Positions 5,889-29,277 of a stretch of DNA of 64,000 bases are shown here, in pieces. The notes beneath the pieces are model-generated. The model searched no databases and was not told the DNA's origin. It saw nothing but the letters and a program-made list of their open reading frames with translations. The stretch comes from a virus. A program made the position numbers and the translations under genes. Every line of letters starts with the position of its first letter. The stretch's first letter is position 1. The stretch lies in IMG/VR virus record IMGVR_UViG_3300044681_000629, positions 1-64,000 of that record; one strand, given 5' to 3'.

Positions 5889-6517
5889 CCCTTTATTGCG
5901 GTCTTGAACAGTTTGCGAATGTCGTCGCTGAGTCCATAGATGACCTGACCTTCGCAACGATCCCTGACATCGTTCACGCTTTCGTGGTACTCGTCCATCT
6001 GGTCATAGTCGGGTTCGCCGTCCTCGTCGCATGGGAAGTCAGGAAACTTGCCCTCAACGTCGGAGAGAAGGTCGCCGTTTGCAACACCGACCGAACCAAC
6101 CAACTCGCACCCACCCTCTTCGTAGGACACCACGAACACAAGTTTCGGGTATTCCTTAGAAATGGTGATAAGACCCTGAATACCTGGGTCCCACGCTGTC
6201 GTGTAGTAGAACTGCGCCATCGTCTCACCCTCTTCGTAGTAAGAGAGGTCGGTGTCGTAGTCACCCCACTTCGTACCCCAGTTGTGGAGACACCACTCGT
6301 ACCAGTCAGATACGCCGTACTTCGCAATCATGTCTGGTTTCTTGGTGAAGTTTGCGGTGACTTCTTGTAACTCTTGTGGACACGGATAGTTGTTCTTGTA
6401 AATCGAATACGACGTTTCGCCGCTCTCATTCACTGGGTTGCTGGAAACCTTGACGAACTCTGAAAGTTCCTTCGGGTCACCAACCACCGTTAGGTAGTTA
6501 GAACAATGGTTTGGCAT
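5885..6517 (-). CDS. Api92/YubB-like (DUF1281) protein
   Basis: 210 residues starting MPNHCSNYLTVVGDPKEL, the signature opening of Api92/YubB-like proteins (MPNWC.N.L.v.G) with a ferredoxin-like fold. Further matches to the family are WYEWCLHNWGTKW and a WDPG-x-QGL segment. The family occurs in phages and conjugative plasmids with no proven activity. SD GGAAGGAG precedes the ATG and a GTGTAACAC-type promoter lies at 6570-6592. Confidence 0.78.
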   Translation of the reverse strand: MPNHCSNYLTVVGDPKELSEFVKVSSNPVNESGETSYSIYKNNYPCPQELQEVTANFTKKPDMIAKYGVSDWYEWCLHNWGTKWGDYDTDLSYYEEGETMAQFYYTTAWDPGIQGLITISKEYPKLVFVVSYEEGGCELVGSVGVANGDLLSDVEGKFPDFPCDEDGEPDYDQMDEYHESVNDVRDRCEGQVIYGLSDDIRKLFKTAIKG

Positions 6518-6569
6518 TGCTTGTTTCTCCTTCCGACTTGCGCCGGTCTAGTTAGGTTTATTTGCCCCC

Positions 6570-6592
6570 ACCTTACAGAAGGGGTGTAACAC
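6570..6592 (-). promoter_or_regulatory. GTGTAACAC-type promoter for 5885-6517
   Basis: GTGTAACAC at 6584-6592, then CCCCTTCTG and TAAGGT (rc at 6570-6575) on the bottom strand. The palindrome begins 17 bp from the -10. Confidence 0.6.
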
Positions 6593-6647
6593 AGTTTCTA
6601 TGAAGTCTGCTTTGTTTATCCAAGTCTATGGTCTGTTTAGATAAATG

Positions 6648-6878
6648 TCAACCCCATTTGTCCAGTTCGTTGCGGAAGTCTGCAACAACCTCATTTTCAA
6701 TAACTTCCAACAAACGGTCAACCTCTGGTCGAACGACACTAAGTGCGTCCATGACGTACCCCATGCGCTCCCCAGACATTTCCCCCTGCTCAATGAGGTC
6801 ACCCACAACGCGACTCAACGCCTTCTGGATTTCCCAAAGTTGTGAATAAGTAAGTGTTATCTGTGTTTTATGTGTCAT
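6648..6878 (-). CDS. Hypothetical small helical protein
   Basis: 76 residues from MTHKTQITLTYSQLWEIQK; an upstream in-frame ATG at 6926 would add 16 residues but looks non-coding. Two helices are likely (LWEIQKALSRVVGDLIEQ and RPEVDRLLEVIENEVVADFRN, interrupted). No family. It is the first gene downstream of cassette 2 on the leftward strand. Confidence 0.52.
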   Translation of the reverse strand: MTHKTQITLTYSQLWEIQKALSRVVGDLIEQGEMSGERMGYVMDALSVVRPEVDRLLEVIENEVVADFRNELDKWG

Positions 6879-6967
6879 GTCAGGATTACGCACGGATCGG
6901 CTGCCGGTGTGACCAGATTTTCGCATTTTTTCGACTTTTTGGGATCCCTGGCGGCCCGCTGCAGCGG

Positions 6968-7047
6968 CTTTCCGCCACCGTCGGACTTATCTGACCCCCA
7001 GATGGCCCCATTCTGGGAGTCCCGCCAGATGCCAGAGCATCGGGACT
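6968..7047. repeat. Regulatory cassette 2
   Basis: CTTTCCGCCACCGT (6968-6981), then AGTCCCG (7018-7024) and CGGGACT (7041-7047) as an inverted pair with a 16-nt gap. A GC-rich palindrome (CCGCTGCAGCGG) lies just left of the 14-mer. The cassette separates a leftward gene from the divergent SOS-type gene at 7110. Confidence 0.7.
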
Positions 7048-7076
7048 GTCGACAAACTTTCCGGGGTTGGTGCTGG

Positions 7077-7105
7077 CGAACAGGTGTTCGGCGAACTAGT
7101 GTTCG
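7077..7105 (+). promoter_or_regulatory. Tandem LexA (SOS) boxes
   Basis: CGAACAGGTGTTCG (7077-7090) and CGAACTAGTGTTCG (7092-7105) both match the Gram-positive/actinobacterial LexA consensus CGAAC-N4-GTTCG exactly and sit 15 bp apart. The second box contains TAGTGT, a plausible -10, ending 7 nt before the ATG at 7110. LexA binding would therefore block a leaderless start. The same 14-mer as box 1 recurs at 21397-21410. Confidence 0.88.
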
Positions 7106-7109
7106 GGGT

Positions 7110-7484
7110 ATGACCATTACACGAGATGAAAGGTGGCAGGAGCATTTCGATGCCCTGCACCAATACACAAACAGAACGGGCAACGCCCTCGTCCCAACAA
7201 CTCACGTTGAGATTTACAATGGCAAGAACATTGCTCTCGGCGCGTGGGTTGCATACAACCGTCAGCGTCAGCGTGCTGGCACTCTCCCCGTTGAGCGTGT
7301 CAATGCACTCGGCGGCCTGAGCGGTTGGAAGTGGGAGAAGCAGCAACCTGGACGACGCTACGACAAGAGTCGTGACGAAGTAATCATCAAGGCATACACG
7401 AACGGTACATCGGCGAAGGATCTCGCCAAACAGTACGGTTTGTCTCGTCAACGAGTTCACCAGATCGTCAGGAACAAGGCCTGA
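7110..7484 (+). CDS. Helicase-associated domain plus HTH DNA-binding protein, SOS-controlled
   Basis: 124 residues. Residues 7-75 (RWQEHFDALHQYTNRTGNA, LGAWVAYNRQRQRAGTL, RVNALGGLSGWKWE) match the helicase-associated domain, a three-helix DNA-binding module. Residues 88-122 (DEVIIKAYTNGTSAKDLAKQ, YGLSRQRVHQIV) form a helix-turn-helix. The ATG follows the tandem LexA boxes by 4 bp with no clear SD, so expression is probably induced by DNA damage. It may act as a transcription switch. Confidence 0.78.
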   Translation: MTITRDERWQEHFDALHQYTNRTGNALVPTTHVEIYNGKNIALGAWVAYNRQRQRAGTLPVERVNALGGLSGWKWEKQQPGRRYDKSRDEVIIKAYTNGTSAKDLAKQYGLSRQRVHQIVRNKA

Positions 7485-7485
7485 T

Positions 7486-7863
7486 TTGGAAGACAAACAA
7501 TCGTGGAAACGTGGTGAATCCGGCGACAAGGGAAACAGATTTCGTGTTCCCAAAGTTGTTGACGAAGAAACTCCGAGCGATGATTTCGGAGACTTCTTCG
7601 ATGGCTACGAAGACCTCACAGAACTCGCTGAGTTCAACGAGAAGTGGGATAAGTACCACAGTAGGAGTCGCATGACAAAGTTCTTCACCGCATTGTTTGG
7701 TTTTGTTTCTGTCGTAAGTGTTTACGCAGTAGCGTTTTTCTTCGGCCTCACCGCGCTCGGTGTTGAATCATTTGAGTACCGTGACGCAGTAATCGTCTCT
7801 GCGTGTTTCGTGTTTATCCGTGTCGTTGATACGGCGATCACGCAGCAGGTGAAGAGTCGATAG
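7486..7863 (+). CDS. Two-TM membrane protein in the SOS operon
   Basis: 125 residues from a TTG start 1 nt after the preceding stop (AACAAGG upstream). An acidic soluble N-terminus (about 60 residues) is followed by two hydrophobic segments, about 66-90 (FFTALFGFVSVVSVYAVAFF) and 98-118. No signal peptide or known domain. Its position in a damage-induced pair could fit a holin-like or membrane-effector role, but nothing in the sequence proves it. Confidence 0.6.
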   Translation: MEDKQSWKRGESGDKGNRFRVPKVVDEETPSDDFGDFFDGYEDLTELAEFNEKWDKYHSRSRMTKFFTALFGFVSVVSVYAVAFFFGLTALGVESFEYRDAVIVSACFVFIRVVDTAITQQVKSR

Positions 7864-7873
7864 AAACACCGAA

Positions 7874-7943
7874 GGGCGGGTGGTGCAAGGAGTCACCGAC
7901 CCGCCCCCGGCGGAGCGAACAAAGGGTGAAAGGAGAAAGCCCC
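7874..7943 (+). terminator. Hairpins and 19-bp repeat at a convergent junction
   Basis: GGGCGGGT-GGTG pairs with CACC-g-ACCCGCCC (7874-7906), a strong hairpin without a T-run. It is followed by GGTGAAAGGAGAAAGCCCC (7925-7943), repeated exactly at 24837-24855, which forms a small stem with CTTTC downstream. Both copies lie between a rightward small membrane-protein gene and a leftward gene. Confidence 0.45.
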
Positions 7944-8003
7944 TTTCGCTCTAGCAGACAGAATAACACATAATGTCATGTCATTCTGAAAGCAGGTTGG
8001 GGA

Positions 8004-9512
8004 TTATCCCCCCAACCTCTTTCCGTTGAGATTCTCGTAGGTTTGTTTCCACGGAGTCGGATACCAACGCTTCGGTGTCTTGCCCAACTTGAGTTCCTTC
8101 AAGACCTCAATGCCCTTGTCAACCGTTGGTGCGAGAAACACCTTGCCTTTGAGTGCTTCCTTTATGCAATCCATCGCAAGTATGTCGTGGTATCCACCCC
8201 ACGCGCCACCGTTGCCGAGACCATGCACCTGACCGTCAGTAATCCAAACGACAGGAGTGGTTGAACGCTTGCGTTGCTTCAATGCCCAACGGATTGCTTC
8301 TCCGTCAACACCGTTGCCGCCGTTCCTCTCAGGAAGTTTGTCAACCATCTTCCCGTTCTCTGCGAGTACGAGAAGGTTGTCCTTCTTGTTGTCTCGGTCT
8401 GCCGAGTAGACCGCAACCGTGCAACCAGGTGCGTTCTCGGTGATTTCAAGAATCTGCTTACTGTGCAGACTCATTGAACCTGAACCGTCAATCAGAACGA
8501 CCCCACCATTGCCCTTCTTCATCGTGTCAAACACACGACGCTGAGGATCGACGAGTGCGTTACCGATACGACGAGGGTTACGTCCCATCGCAGACGCAAT
8601 ACGCTTGCGTCCGAGACCACCCTTCGCACGACGAGTCATCGGAAGGTGCTTCACCTTGAGTTCACCCCAAGTGGGGACGACACCATTGCGACCACGAGGG
8701 TCTGCAGGGTTGATCTTTGACAAGTCAACAGGTGGTTTCTTTTCGTCGTTCGCCTTGTTGTTGGTCGCACGATTTTCCGGATTTCCCTGATTCTTGTCTT
8801 CCTTCTCGCCTTCGTTCGGTGCGCCGTTGCCGTTCTCACCGTCTTGTGCGTCGTCTTCTTCTTGCTGGATACTTGCAAGTCGGTCAATCCACTCTGCGAT
8901 TCGTTCCGTGTGCGCGAAACCGAAAGGTGCGAGACCCGTGCGTGGATCGACTTCAGTTGAACCGAGGTCGCCACGCTTGTATGCCTTCACCATTTCTTTC
9001 TCAACACGCTTGGTGATGTCTTTGAGACTCTGACCCCACGCACGATTCACTCGTCGTACACCCGTGAGGAAGTCCTTGCCGCCACCACAGTATGAGTATC
9101 CAACCGCCGTGTAGACCAACGACGCCCAATCGCCACGTTCCGCAAGAAGTGTTCCCGAAGTGAGTTCCGACCCGTCGCTGAGAACGCTGGTGTCGAATCC
9201 TGCCTTCTTGACCAGGAAGTTCACTCGTACTTCTTCAACGACTCGCAACGCTTGCTCGGTCGCAATCTTTCGGTCAATCCACTTCCCGAAGTCTTCTGCA
9301 GGTGACACTCGTGCGTGCATCATTTCGTGCGCACGGATAACGCGGTCAATCTGCTCGTCTGCCACGGGAACGACCATGTGTCGTCCAACGATGTCGGTCA
9401 TTGGTTTGCCACGCACCGGTTTGCAGGTGTCAATGCGCCAACCGCCATCTTCGTTCTGTCGATCTTTGCGCCCCAACATTTCTGGAAGGGGACGGATTTC
9501 TGTCTTGTTCAT
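8004..9512 (-). CDS. VWA-domain protein with HExxH metallopeptidase-like N-terminus
   Basis: 502 residues. HEMMH at 62-66 within RAHEMMHARVSP is a zincin-like motif. A long acidic, low-complexity linker (about 220-270) leads to a von Willebrand A domain with the MIDAS start VVLIDGSGSMS and a later WITDG. This is the layout of DUF2201/CobT-type VWA partners of MoxR ATPases. The cognate AAA+ gene is immediately downstream on the same strand. Such pairs remodel or activate protein complexes, often with metal-centre chemistry. The phage target is unknown. Confidence 0.82.
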   Translation of the reverse strand: MNKTEIRPLPEMLGRKDRQNEDGGWRIDTCKPVRGKPMTDIVGRHMVVPVADEQIDRVIRAHEMMHARVSPAEDFGKWIDRKIATEQALRVVEEVRVNFLVKKAGFDTSVLSDGSELTSGTLLAERGDWASLVYTAVGYSYCGGGKDFLTGVRRVNRAWGQSLKDITKRVEKEMVKAYKRGDLGSTEVDPRTGLAPFGFAHTERIAEWIDRLASIQQEEDDAQDGENGNGAPNEGEKEDKNQGNPENRATNNKANDEKKPPVDLSKINPADPRGRNGVVPTWGELKVKHLPMTRRAKGGLGRKRIASAMGRNPRRIGNALVDPQRRVFDTMKKGNGGVVLIDGSGSMSLHSKQILEITENAPGCTVAVYSADRDNKKDNLLVLAENGKMVDKLPERNGGNGVDGEAIRWALKQRKRSTTPVVWITDGQVHGLGNGGAWGGYHDILAMDCIKEALKGKVFLAPTVDKGIEVLKELKLGKTPKRWYPTPWKQTYENLNGKRLGG

Positions 9513-9611
9513 GTTTCTCCTATTTGTTTATGGTTTAGTTTCGGGCCACTTGCTTATGGCGGCCCTATTGACACCCCCACCTTACGGCAGGGGTGTCATG
9601 GGGTTATTCGG

Positions 9612-10355
9612 TCAGACCGCAACCTTGTTGATTGCGATTGCGTCCAAGAACGCTTGTGCTTGCGCACCGAAGATGAGTCGTGCTGACTCTTCGTCGCCCA
9701 TGCTTGAACGGAGTTTGTCAAACGCATAGAACGTGCGGAGAGAGATTCGTCGCTCGCCTGCGTCTGCCATGCGAACCGCATAAGGTCGCAAGTCTCCTGA
9801 CAACATTGCCAACGCGTCAGGGTGAGGTTGGTTGACTCGGATTGCCACGGGGAATCGATCACGCAACGCCTCGGGGAGTTCGTCCATGTTCTCAATGTTC
9901 GTGGTCATCACGACGCTGAATCCGTCCTGAGGACGCACCACACGACCGTTGTCGGGGTGCTCCCACTTCGCCGAGTCATGTGAGTCGGTCATTGCCAAGA
10001 GGGTTGCGAAGACATCGCCACCTGCCTTGTCAATCTCGTCAACTACGAGACGACCACCACGGAGTCCGTCGCCCTGCCATGCCTTGACCGCAGAACCTTC
10101 GTGCCACGACCAACCGCCGTTGCCGTTCATCTTGTAGTGACCGACGACATCTGCGTTCGTCATGTCTTCGGTGCAGATGAGTCGCCATGCTCCTGCGTTG
10201 ACATCACCGTAGTTGAGACCTGCGAAGGTCTTTCCGGTTCCTGGAGGTCCGAACAGAATGAGTCTGTCGATCCCTGCGTTGAGTGCGTTCTCAACGTCCT
10301 TCCAACATTGCGGAAGGTCTTGACGAACCTCTCGCTGGTTTGCTTGCTGTGCCAT
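9612..10355 (-). CDS. MoxR-like AAA+ ATPase
   Basis: 247 residues from ATG 10355 (GGAAGGAG upstream; an ATG 18 nt earlier is less well placed). Walker A GPPGTGKT at 36-43, Walker B RLVVDEIDKAG, sensor 1 MTTN, and EALRDRF for the arginine-finger region define a MoxR/CobS-type AAA+ core. It is paired with the VWA protein at 8004-9512. The two probably form a chaperone complex in which the ATPase hexamer works on a VWA-bound client. Confidence 0.92.
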   Translation of the reverse strand: MAQQANQREVRQDLPQCWKDVENALNAGIDRLILFGPPGTGKTFAGLNYGDVNAGAWRLICTEDMTNADVVGHYKMNGNGGWSWHEGSAVKAWQGDGLRGGRLVVDEIDKAGGDVFATLLAMTDSHDSAKWEHPDNGRVVRPQDGFSVVMTTNIENMDELPEALRDRFPVAIRVNQPHPDALAMLSGDLRPYAVRMADAGERRISLRTFYAFDKLRSSMGDEESARLIFGAQAQAFLDAIAINKVAV

Positions 10356-10413
10356 TTTATTTCTCCTTCCCACTCTGCTGGTGGGTCTAGTTGGTTTACT
10401 TGCTTACCCCATC

Positions 10414-11151: not shown

Positions 11152-11241
11152 CTTTCCGCCACCGTAGGACTTCGGGATCGACACATCGGCCTCGGCGCGC
11201 CGCTCCCCTGGAGTCCCGACACTCCGCATCACAGCGGGACT
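11152..11241. repeat. Regulatory cassette 3
   Basis: CTTTCCGCCACCGT (11152-11165), AGTCCCG (11212-11218) and CGGGACT (11235-11241) with a 16-nt gap. It lies between the end of gene 11248-11445 and the promoters of the MoxR-VWA locus. Confidence 0.72.
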
Positions 11242-13318: not shown

Positions 13319-14038
13319 TTACTTGACTGCCTTCTTGCGTCCGCAAACAATGTTCAGGGTTTCCACGAGTACCGCAAACCCCATCGCAAAGTAAATGTAA
13401 CCCTTTGAGATGTGCTGCCCGATACCGTCTGCTACCAACATCGTGCCGATGAGTAGAAGGAAACCGAGTGCGAGAATCTTGATGGTCGGGTGACGGTCAA
13501 TGAACTCGCCAACGAACGTGGACGCAACGACCATGACCGCTACGGACACGATGACTGCAAGAACCATCGTCGCTGTGTGGTCGGTCATACCTACTGCCGT
13601 GATAACGGAGTCAATGGAGAATACGATGTCCAACACCATGATTTGTACGATGACGCTGACAAGTGATGCGCTCACCGCACGAGACTTTCCGTGCGTCGAA
13701 GTGTCGCCCTCAATGCGCTCGTGAATCTCGTGTGTCGCTTTACCCAATAGGAACAGTCCGCCGATAATCATTACCAAGTCACGACCGCTGACACCGTGAT
13801 CAAACACGACGAACAGTTCTGTGGTGAGTGTGACTATCCAACTTGCGAAGAAGATGAGAATGATACGAGTTGCACCTGCGCCGATGAGTCCGACTTTGCG
13901 TGCGAACGACTGCTGACTTGCCGGGAGTTTTCCTGCAAGAAGTGAGATGAAGATTACATTGTCAAACCCGAGGATAATCTCCAACAGGGTCAATGTGAAT
14001 AGTGCGCTGATGAACGTTGGGTTGAGTATTGCGTCCAT
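13319..14038 (-). CDS. TerC-family integral membrane protein
   Basis: 239 residues with about seven hydrophobic segments. TerC motifs: LEIILGFDNVIFISLLAGKL near the N-terminus, and VLDIVFSIDSVITAVGM in the second half. The paired acidic residues in membrane helices (E..LGFDN and DIVFSIDS) are the family's metal-site signature. TerC/YkoY proteins export Mn(2+) and support metalation of secreted proteins in bacteria; tellurite resistance is the historical label. The copy is full-length and intact, an unusual cargo for a phage. Confidence 0.92.
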   Translation of the reverse strand: MDAILNPTFISALFTLTLLEIILGFDNVIFISLLAGKLPASQQSFARKVGLIGAGATRIILIFFASWIVTLTTELFVVFDHGVSGRDLVMIIGGLFLLGKATHEIHERIEGDTSTHGKSRAVSASLVSVIVQIMVLDIVFSIDSVITAVGMTDHTATMVLAVIVSVAVMVVASTFVGEFIDRHPTIKILALGFLLLIGTMLVADGIGQHISKGYIYFAMGFAVLVETLNIVCGRKKAVK

Positions 14039-14211: not shown

Positions 14212-14305
14212 CTTTCCGCCACCGTAGGACTAGCAGGCTCGTCGAATCATTTGTTGATGCGCCGGTTTCCGGTGAGTCCCGTTGTTTGCATCAACTATCG
14301 GGACT
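14212..14305. repeat. Regulatory cassette 4
   Basis: CTTTCCGCCACCGT (14212-14225), AGTCCCG (14275-14281) and CGGGACT (14299-14305), gap 17 nt. It is bracketed by the terminator of the upstream operon and the promoter of the TerC gene. Confidence 0.72.
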
Positions 14306-16364: not shown

Positions 16365-16394
16365 AGTCCCGTGGCGTATTTACAGGGCGGGACT
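16365..16394. repeat. Regulatory cassette 5 (dyad only)
   Basis: AGTCCCG (16365-16371) and CGGGACT (16388-16394), gap 16 nt, without the 14-mer. It lies in the divergent intergenic region 16101-16588, which also holds a GTGGTC/GACCAC hairpin (about 16222-16237). That region contains no supported gene. Confidence 0.68.
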
Positions 16395-17270: not shown

Positions 17271-17873
17271 ATGAGAACAAAAAAACCTCAAATCGAAGTG
17301 CTCGAAGAAATCAAATCCGGCTGGGCTCGATACCGGGCTGAAGTCCCGATGGCAATTAACGCCTGCATTCTGGCGGCCAACTACACGCATCGAGTTCTCG
17401 ACGCGTTCGAAATCAAACACCAGGTCAGACCCATCGGGGCGACCATCTTTAACCGCAAAGGTTGGGAACTTTTCCCCACACCAGCAAACGAACTCCCACC
17501 AGAGGCATGGTCAGTTCATTGTTCCAGCCGTTCCGAACATGTGCTGATGAGCGGGTGGAGCGGACATCTCGTGGTCGAAACAGCCGAATACTTCATCGAC
17601 TTGAGCGCAAACCAATTTTCTCGTCCCGGACATCAGATCACCATTCTCGGCCCCCTGATAGTCCCGAGATCGAGCATCAAAGAACTTCCCAGCGGGACTC
17701 CCATACACGACATCGCCCGGGCGGACCAAGCGTTTATTTTCGATTTGGGATCAGGGGTTTACACGTTCTATTACGAAGATTGGAACTTGGTCTACAAGAA
17801 GGCTCGGGATTGGAGCAGGTCGTTTAGGGAGATGGGGCTTGGCGAGGTGGTTCAGGCAATTCAGGTGAAATAA
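17271..17873 (+). CDS. Hypothetical protein with possible Cys-His-Asp (transglutaminase-like) core
   Basis: 200 residues. A buried-looking Cys in INACILAANYTHRVLDAF, then GHLVVETAEYFIDLSANQFSR: His on a strand followed by Asp on the next. This Cys ... His ... Asp order, with iDLs..QF after the Asp, is the pattern of transglutaminase/NAT-type folds. The gene holds three of the dispersed AGTCCCG heptamers. There is no SD; the leader is AT-rich. The fold is an inference; activity unknown. Confidence 0.6.
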   Translation: MRTKKPQIEVLEEIKSGWARYRAEVPMAINACILAANYTHRVLDAFEIKHQVRPIGATIFNRKGWELFPTPANELPPEAWSVHCSSRSEHVLMSGWSGHLVVETAEYFIDLSANQFSRPGHQITILGPLIVPRSSIKELPSGTPIHDIARADQAFIFDLGSGVYTFYYEDWNLVYKKARDWSRSFREMGLGEVVQAIQVK

Positions 17874-21396: not shown

Positions 21397-21410
21397 CGAA
21401 CAGGTGTTCG
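21397..21410 (+). promoter_or_regulatory. LexA (SOS) box upstream of lysozyme-like gene
   Basis: CGAACAGGTGTTCG, identical to the box at 7077-7090. A TATACT -10 candidate lies at 21444-21449. The box is about 35 bp upstream of it, where a repressor could cover the -35. Confidence 0.8.
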
Positions 21411-21526: not shown

Positions 21527-22114
21527 TTGATAGGTAAAGCAGTAGCGGTAGTTTTCGCTATCTATACGGTCATATTCGGAGTGGAAGCGGTTGCGAAAGC
21601 ACCTCTCCATGAGGCACCTGAAGTGGTTATGGCATCGACCCCAGCACCACTCATGAATCTCATCCAACCCGAAATCCAACCCCAAGAGACGATTCTCGAG
21701 CACCCGTATGCGAACATCCAGTTCAAGCACGGAGATGTCTCGTGGCTACCGAAACTGGCACTTATGGCGGGGTGGAAAGAGAAGCAAATCCCACGTTTGA
21801 CCAGAATCATTCTTCGTGAGTCCGGCGGTTGTCCGTATCGGAGGGGCGGAGACATCGTGGATAAGAACTGTAATGTCGTCGGGCATGATGGTTCCGACCA
21901 CGCATCGGACACTGGTCTCCTCCAAATCAACGGTATTAACTACAATCTGAAGCGCAACAAGTGGGCGGCGTTGTGTACGCAGATGGGTATCTGTGAGCAG
22001 GAACCACTCCTTGACCCGTTGACGAACCTGAGGGCAGGCAAACTGTTGTTTGATATTGCGGGTTGGGAACCGTGGAACCCGTGTAACTGGGACCCCAAGA
22101 GGTGCGGTAAGTAA
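21527..22114 (+). CDS. Lysozyme-like/transglycosylase protein with signal anchor
   Basis: 195 residues from TTG with GAAGGA. Hydrophobic 1-23 (IGKAVAVVFAIYTVIFGVEA) is a signal or anchor. The SLT/lysozyme-like domain shows RIILRESGGCP (catalytic Glu expected here), SDTGLLQIN and LLDPLTNLRAGKLLF ending GWEPWNPC. Cleaves peptidoglycan; it could serve lysis. With a LexA box upstream, its expression may rise on DNA damage. Confidence 0.82.
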   Translation: MIGKAVAVVFAIYTVIFGVEAVAKAPLHEAPEVVMASTPAPLMNLIQPEIQPQETILEHPYANIQFKHGDVSWLPKLALMAGWKEKQIPRLTRIILRESGGCPYRRGGDIVDKNCNVVGHDGSDHASDTGLLQINGINYNLKRNKWAALCTQMGICEQEPLLDPLTNLRAGKLLFDIAGWEPWNPCNWDPKRCGK

Positions 22115-28179: not shown

Positions 28180-28516
28180 ATTGCAACCAATCTCACAAAT
28201 CGAAATCGAATCAGAAATAATGCGACTTATGGGGATGCTCGAAGAGGAAACCGAAGCATTCGAAACGTTGGCTACAGACTGCGCCAAAAAGGAGGCGTTG
28301 ATGAAGGCGAACTGGGCTAAGGAATACCTGTCTGCGAAGGGTTCCATCAAGGAACGGGAAGCGTGGGCTGACTACAAACTGTCAGACGAAGCCTACGCAT
28401 ACAAGATTGCCGAAGCACTCGTCAAAGCCAAACGAGAAAAGTTGCTTTCCGTCCGCACATCACTCGACGCACTCCGGACATTGAACGCGAACGTACGTGT
28501 GCAGGTGAACCCGTGA
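28172..28516 (+). CDS. Hypothetical helical protein next to the resolvase
   Basis: 114 residues, almost entirely helix (QIEIESEIMRLMGMLEEETE, EREAWADYKLSDEAYAYKI, VKAKREKLLSVRTSLDALR). Overlaps the RuvC-like gene by 8 nt. Similar long-helix proteins follow RuvC-like genes in other phages; role unknown. Confidence 0.65.
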   Translation: MARLQPISQIEIESEIMRLMGMLEEETEAFETLATDCAKKEALMKANWAKEYLSAKGSIKEREAWADYKLSDEAYAYKIAEALVKAKREKLLSVRTSLDALRTLNANVRVQVNP

Positions 28517-29277
28517 GCAACATCCACGAATCAATCCGGCATCTGGCCACCCCTATCGACAAGTTAGTCCCGCTTCCCGGCAATCCCCGGAAGGGCGCAG
28601 TCGAAGCAATCATGGCTTCGTACCGGGAGTTCGGCCAAGTGAAACCTGTCGTAGTGAAAGCGAACGATGATGGCACCTCAACGGTTATTGCTGGCAACCA
28701 TCAAGTTGAAGCGTGCAGACGGCTCGGCTGGACAGAGGTGGCGGTCGTACAGTTCGCTGGTAGCGACGTGGACGCAATCGCATTCGCTCTCGCAGACAAC
28801 AGGACAACAGAACTCGGCACAACAGACAACACTCTTCTCTTTGAAATGATTGACATGGCTGAAGAGCACATGGAACTGTTTGAATCACTCGGCTGGGACG
28901 ACTTTGAGTTCGCCTCCATGGAAGACAACTACACATCCACAGACGACGGCACATACACCCCGCCTGTGATGCAGACAATAGACACAGCACCTGTCGCACC
29001 ACAACCATCACCCGTAGTCACCCGTGACGCTGATGGCGAAACCACCCTCTCAGCACCTGAATCAGTTGACACGAATACTGCTGTCACACAAGGCGCACCT
29101 GCTGTGGTGAACAACCCCTCAAAAGCGGTAGTCCAATACACGCTTGTATTTGACTCAGCAGAGCAGCAACGCAAATGGTATGACTTCATACGCTGGCTGA
29201 AAGCAGACGCAGGCTATGACGGCAACACCACCGCTGAACGGCTACTCAACTTCCTAGACAGTCACGCAAACTATTGA
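28513..29277 (+). CDS. ParB-like nuclease-domain protein
   Basis: 254 residues from GTG (GTGA overlap). Residues 14-90 (IDKLVPLPGNPRKGAVEAIM, FGQVKPVVVKAN, VIAGNHQVEACRRLGWTEV) are the ParB/Sulfiredoxin N-domain with the GNHR-type motif as GNHQ. A Pro/Thr-rich linker and a short helical C-domain follow. In phages such proteins often accompany DNA modification or act as CTP-binding DNA adaptors. Confidence 0.85.
   Translation: MSNIHESIRHLATPIDKLVPLPGNPRKGAVEAIMASYREFGQVKPVVVKANDDGTSTVIAGNHQVEACRRLGWTEVAVVQFAGSDVDAIAFALADNRTTELGTTDNTLLFEMIDMAEEHMELFESLGWDDFEFASMEDNYTSTDDGTYTPPVMQTIDTAPVAPQPSPVVTRDADGETTLSAPESVDTNTAVTQGAPAVVNNPSKAVVQYTLVFDSAEQQRKWYDFIRWLKADAGYDGNTTAERLLNFLDSHANY

Follow-up and report, generated by a model that had tools for sequence, protein, structure and literature searches.

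A conserved LexA-type operator at the promoter of a two-gene operon in putative actinobacteriophages without visible lysogeny genes

Regulatory precedents in phages and hosts

LexA hijacking by phages has precedents, most of them in temperate phages and prophages. The locus described here appears to have its nearest models in the betatectivirus GIL01, which depends on host LexA, and in the CtrA deferment phages. In GIL01, host LexA acts at promoter P1 together with the co-repressor gp7 (PMC4551915). In the "lytic deferment" phages of Alphaproteobacteria, a small number of conserved, uncharacterized genes are under the host regulator CtrA, an arrangement that has been proposed to operate without lysogeny (PMC9437464). 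On the host side, the operator motif measured for Streptomyces venezuelae LexA is tCGAAC-N4-GNNCGa (PMC9380542).

The locus under study lies in a 64,000-nt window, comprising positions 1 to 64,000 of the 66,589-bp IMG/VR record IMGVR_UViG_3300044681_000629. It resembles GIL01 in presenting paired boxes of the kind bound by host LexA at a phage promoter (PMC4551915). GIL01, however, is a temperate phage of the linear-plasmid type and requires gp7, whereas no lysogeny genes were seen here; in GIL01 the LexA sites are found downstream of P1, whereas the box in the present phage overlaps the -35 element and spacer, and the operon is a different one. The likeness to the CtrA phages lies in a host regulator apparently being used at a small set of conserved genes, although that regulator is a cell-cycle protein rather than LexA and the hosts differ. 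Leaderless uvrB and uvrA SOS promoters of Actinobacteria share the arrangement CGAAC-RNNY-GTTCG, N6, TANNNT, N7, and ATG, but they drive host repair genes, while the promoter described here precedes a phage operon.

Promoter architecture

Two exact LexA-type boxes lie on the plus strand ahead of gene 1, whose ATG begins at 7110. Box 1 (CGAACAGGTGTTCG, 7077–7090) is the conserved operator and occupies -33 to -20 relative to the start codon. Box 2 (CGAACTAGTGTTCG, 7092–7105) follows after 1 bp, overlaps the -10 element, and occurs in this phage only. The two units form a 15-nt direct repeat with 87% identity. The -10 element, TAGTGT (7097–7102, plus strand; family consensus ACTANTNT), recurs in nine lineages and stands 7 nt before the ATG, with four nucleotides (7106–7109) between box 2 and the start codon. 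An earlier note on this DNA had described two CGAAC-N4-GTTCG boxes with starts 15 bp apart, a -10 inside the second, and the ATG 4 bp on, all of which is borne out by these coordinates. A putative weak -35 element, TGGCGA (7074–7079, plus strand), overlaps box 1 at 17 bp from the -10. Its counterpart in the relative L005 and in bacterial uvrB and recA promoters is TTGCGA, which in those bacterial promoters overlaps the left half-site and likewise lies 17 bp from the -10.

The promoter is best read from its sequence as leaderless, because the -10 stands only seven nucleotides before the ATG and a Shine-Dalgarno motif is absent from every relative. The gene 1 reading frame is open upstream as far as 6870. 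This in-frame extension was rejected as coding sequence because in the relative L007 a stop interrupts the frame at -42, and no start codon follows it until the ATG.

Exact boxes are rare by composition. The window contains three, against 0.13 expected from dinucleotide-preserving shuffles, and at least three were reached in 0 of 100 such shuffles; the rest of the record, most of which the window covers, adds no further exact box. The third copy, overlooked in the earlier note, is identical to box 1 (21397–21410, plus strand) and is not conserved. A -10 element, TATACT, follows about 34 bp downstream, ahead of a lysozyme-like gene (21527–22114). As a conserved operator of that gene it was rejected, the box being absent at 27 relatives. 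A box at L034:11815, checked for synteny, proved to lie upstream of a different gene.

Conservation and specificity of the operator

Relatives of gene 1 were found at 15 IMG/VR loci, with 57–63% protein identity to the gene 1 product (P0001; 56–63% over the nine distinct lineages), and a scan with the promoter pattern located two further loci (L069 and L070). A profile search of viral contigs gained no extra relatives, and INPHARED phages gave no match to a nucleotide search with 6500–9500 or to tblastn with P0001. The order of gene 1 and gene 2 is kept in relatives. At each of the 15 loci, and throughout the nine distinct lineages, box 1 stands at -33 to -20 and is followed by N6, TANNNT, N7, and ATG. 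Half-site columns are identical in 7–9 of the 9 distinct promoters, while the columns of the N4 center and N6 spacer vary, and the center reads R-N-N-Y in all nine. Conservation among relatives, which a LexA-regulon operator should display, extends across the nine lineages, three of which carry one mismatch in the box. In five relatives (G001, G003, G008, G009, and G011; records of 30–138 kb), the box at the operon promoter is the sole exact one in the record.

The position of box 2 is palindromic in no relative, so that conservation concerns a single operator and not a tandem. The earlier note had made the tandem arrangement its key, a view that the single box of the relatives does not sustain. 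Judged by sequence, box 2 represents a version of the -10 region unique to this phage. Several relatives carry a second LexA-like box elsewhere, CAAACAAATGTTCG (L036:9569, L037:8953, L039:10591, and L040:12595), situated between divergent genes about 240–290 bp upstream of the homologue of 17271–17873; the window has no box at that site.

The full pattern is closely associated with this gene family. Scanning IMG/VR with CGAACN4GTTCG-N6-TANNNT-N7-ATG returned 19 stretches, 12 of which precede gene 1 family members, and relaxing the half-sites to CRAAC/GTTYG returned 25 (17 from the family). A control scan with the spacer set to N10 gave 20 stretches and no family member. Across 84,980 bacterial and archaeal species, the same geometry with an R-N-N-Y center had 41 matches, including uvrB (six times), uvrA (three), and recA (two), with SOS genes near boxes identified by reading translations. 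The uvrB and uvrA matches fall in Actinobacteria and those of recA in Bacillota. In seven contigs, mostly of Bacteroidota (L087, L093, L097, L106, L112, L113, and L125), the geometry stands before one gene whose product starts M[GQ]TDWYT[ND]QMK and which is no recognized SOS gene.

Five actinobacterial genomes of 3–4.5 Mb contain 6–13 exact boxes each, and these precede lexA (in four of the five), dnaE2, dinB, uvrA, uvrB, recA, and other genes. A CGAAC-N4-GTTCG operator at the promoter, the mark of the actinobacterial LexA/SOS regulon, is what the phage carries. The flanking T and A of the Streptomyces consensus are absent and replaced by G and C in the phage, as in some uvrB matches.

Operon products and genome context

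Gene 1 (7110–7484, plus strand) encodes 124 residues, with a helicase-associated (HA) domain at 6–67 and a C-terminal helix-turn-helix (HTH) at about 86–123, as assigned from Pfam, PHROGs, and an AF2 model. The match to Pfam HA (PF03457) has an E-value of 8.2e-15 and 55.3 bits, against a gathering score of 28.4. The HTH segment gives weak matches to Mor and to PHROGs HTH and phage late-activator families. The model (pLDDT 86) is predicted to be helical with good confidence except in the linker, and Foldseek against the PDB returned nothing below E 0.001, with short HTH overlaps only. Gene 2 (7486–7863, plus strand) encodes 125 residues, with an N-terminus that is acidic and disordered and a pair of hydrophobic helices, as judged by hydropathy and AF2; the helices are modeled at 44–90 and 98–124, and the N-terminus is of low confidence. 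It matched no Pfam or PHROG family. The earlier description of a helicase-associated/HTH protein followed by a two-TM protein agrees with these assignments.

An actinobacterial host is indicated by a WhiB gene and by a primase-helicase whose closest relatives are in Arthrobacter, Gordonia, and Microbacterium phages. The genome also encodes a class II RNR, SSB, a RuvC-like protein, an HK97-type major head protein, and a ParB-like protein (28513–29277). Long stretches of synteny with relatives surround the operon, beside which an AAA_5 (MoxR/CobS-like) ATPase and a 502-aa partner (8004–10373) are 67–81% conserved, with a value of 80% for the ATPase.

The earlier note expected a switch of temperate type and proposed a search for a repressor or integrase elsewhere in the genome. 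When run on this record and seven relatives, all possibly fragments, that search detected Phage_integrase, resolvase/serine recombinase, and ParA-type AAA_31 domains in none of the eight. Nor did any of them contain a LexA_DNA_bind domain, the expected signature of a phage-encoded LexA-like repressor, and the temperate switch is left unsupported. Relatives extend to 145 kb, so the record itself may not be complete.

Regulatory interpretation

Control of the operon by host LexA is well supported at the level of sequence by conservation in nine lineages, the same geometry at uvrA, uvrB, and recA, and the box before lexA. The locus is very probably a leaderless SOS promoter under host LexA at box 1 that gates the two-gene operon. 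Of the earlier claim that host LexA fully silences these genes until DNA damage induces them, the actinobacterial-type operator is thereby upheld, SOS induction is presumed, and complete silencing is unsupported. Host LexA bound at box 1 would occlude the -35 element and spacer and block RNA polymerase, keeping the operon off, until RecA* prompted LexA self-cleavage and allowed expression. Box 2, lying over the -10, may tighten repression in this phage.

The trigger could be DNA damage or an SOS response induced by infection itself. Rhodococcus SOS genes rise within 5 min of phage WC1 infection and are down by 30 min (PMC10986025), so the trigger need not be external damage. Gene 1 would then act as a DNA-binding regulator and gene 2 as its small membrane protein partner; the pair probably alters either the physiology of the damaged host cell or the phage program itself, for instance late expression or the timing of lysis.

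Several points weigh against the LexA reading: the mismatches in three lineages, the missing flanking T/A, gene products without a clear link to any phage process, and the DNA-binding nature of gene 1 itself, which could own the site. Under such autoregulation, the palindrome would be the operator of the gene's own HTH product and its likeness to a LexA box coincidence or mimicry, in keeping with a box that is single in five relatives and placed at gene 1 only. This is quite unlikely, given that the ten fixed bases and their spacing are those of the actinobacterial LexA box, that identical geometry occurs at bacterial uvrA, uvrB, and recA, with boxes before lexA, and that coincidence is unlikely to reproduce both half-site and spacing (the half-site by itself has odds of about 1 in 1000). 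It is scarcely credible that the palindromes arose by chance at a promoter under unrelated control: neither box 2 nor the third box is conserved, but box 1 is kept in nine lineages and the expected number of exact boxes is far below that observed.

Alternatively, LexA could silence an episomal or integrated prophage, with the operon starting lytic growth as in GIL01. Temperate phages with switches of this type run by LexA boxes are indeed known (PMC4551915), and a ParB-like gene is present. The absence of integrase, serine recombinase, LexA-type domain, and ParA from the eight records, which may be fragments, nevertheless makes a lysogeny switch unlikely, as does the large size of the genomes, which themselves encode RNR, primase, and MCP. 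A search of 84,980 bacterial and archaeal genomes with one gene as query found no gene 1 relatives, which an integrated prophage might have supplied.

Returning to host LexA control, the switch is retained in nine lineages that yielded no integration genes, and the phage thus probably senses damage to host DNA without being a prophage of the usual kind. The most likely reading is that damage or infection triggers the operon, which serves as a regulator in a phage that shows no lysogeny genes. A bolder and tentative proposal, possible but doubtful, is that an actinophage clade devoid of lysogeny genes took over the host SOS promoter to sense SOS induced by infection or damage and to gate a late-acting transcription factor and a membrane protein, as a LexA form of lytic deferment. 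What distinguishes this locus is a conserved LexA operator in phages without visible lysogeny machinery, placed over an unstudied operon of regulator and membrane protein. Why such a phage should heed the SOS response is now a testable question, and the promoter signature can be used to find similar operons.

Other features of the window

Upstream of the promoter lies an inverted repeat, AGTCCCG...CGGGACT (7018–7047), and a CGGGACT-TGC stretch is conserved beside the box in relatives. CGGGACT occurs 28 times in the window against 6.8 expected, often within such repeats, which are also found at 2361–2412, 11212–11241, 14275–14305, and 16365–16394. A phage-carried membrane protein of the moron/auxiliary class (13319–14038; PHROG 7180), which we take to be TerC-like, and a tRNA-Ile with anticodon TAT (598–671) are likewise encoded.
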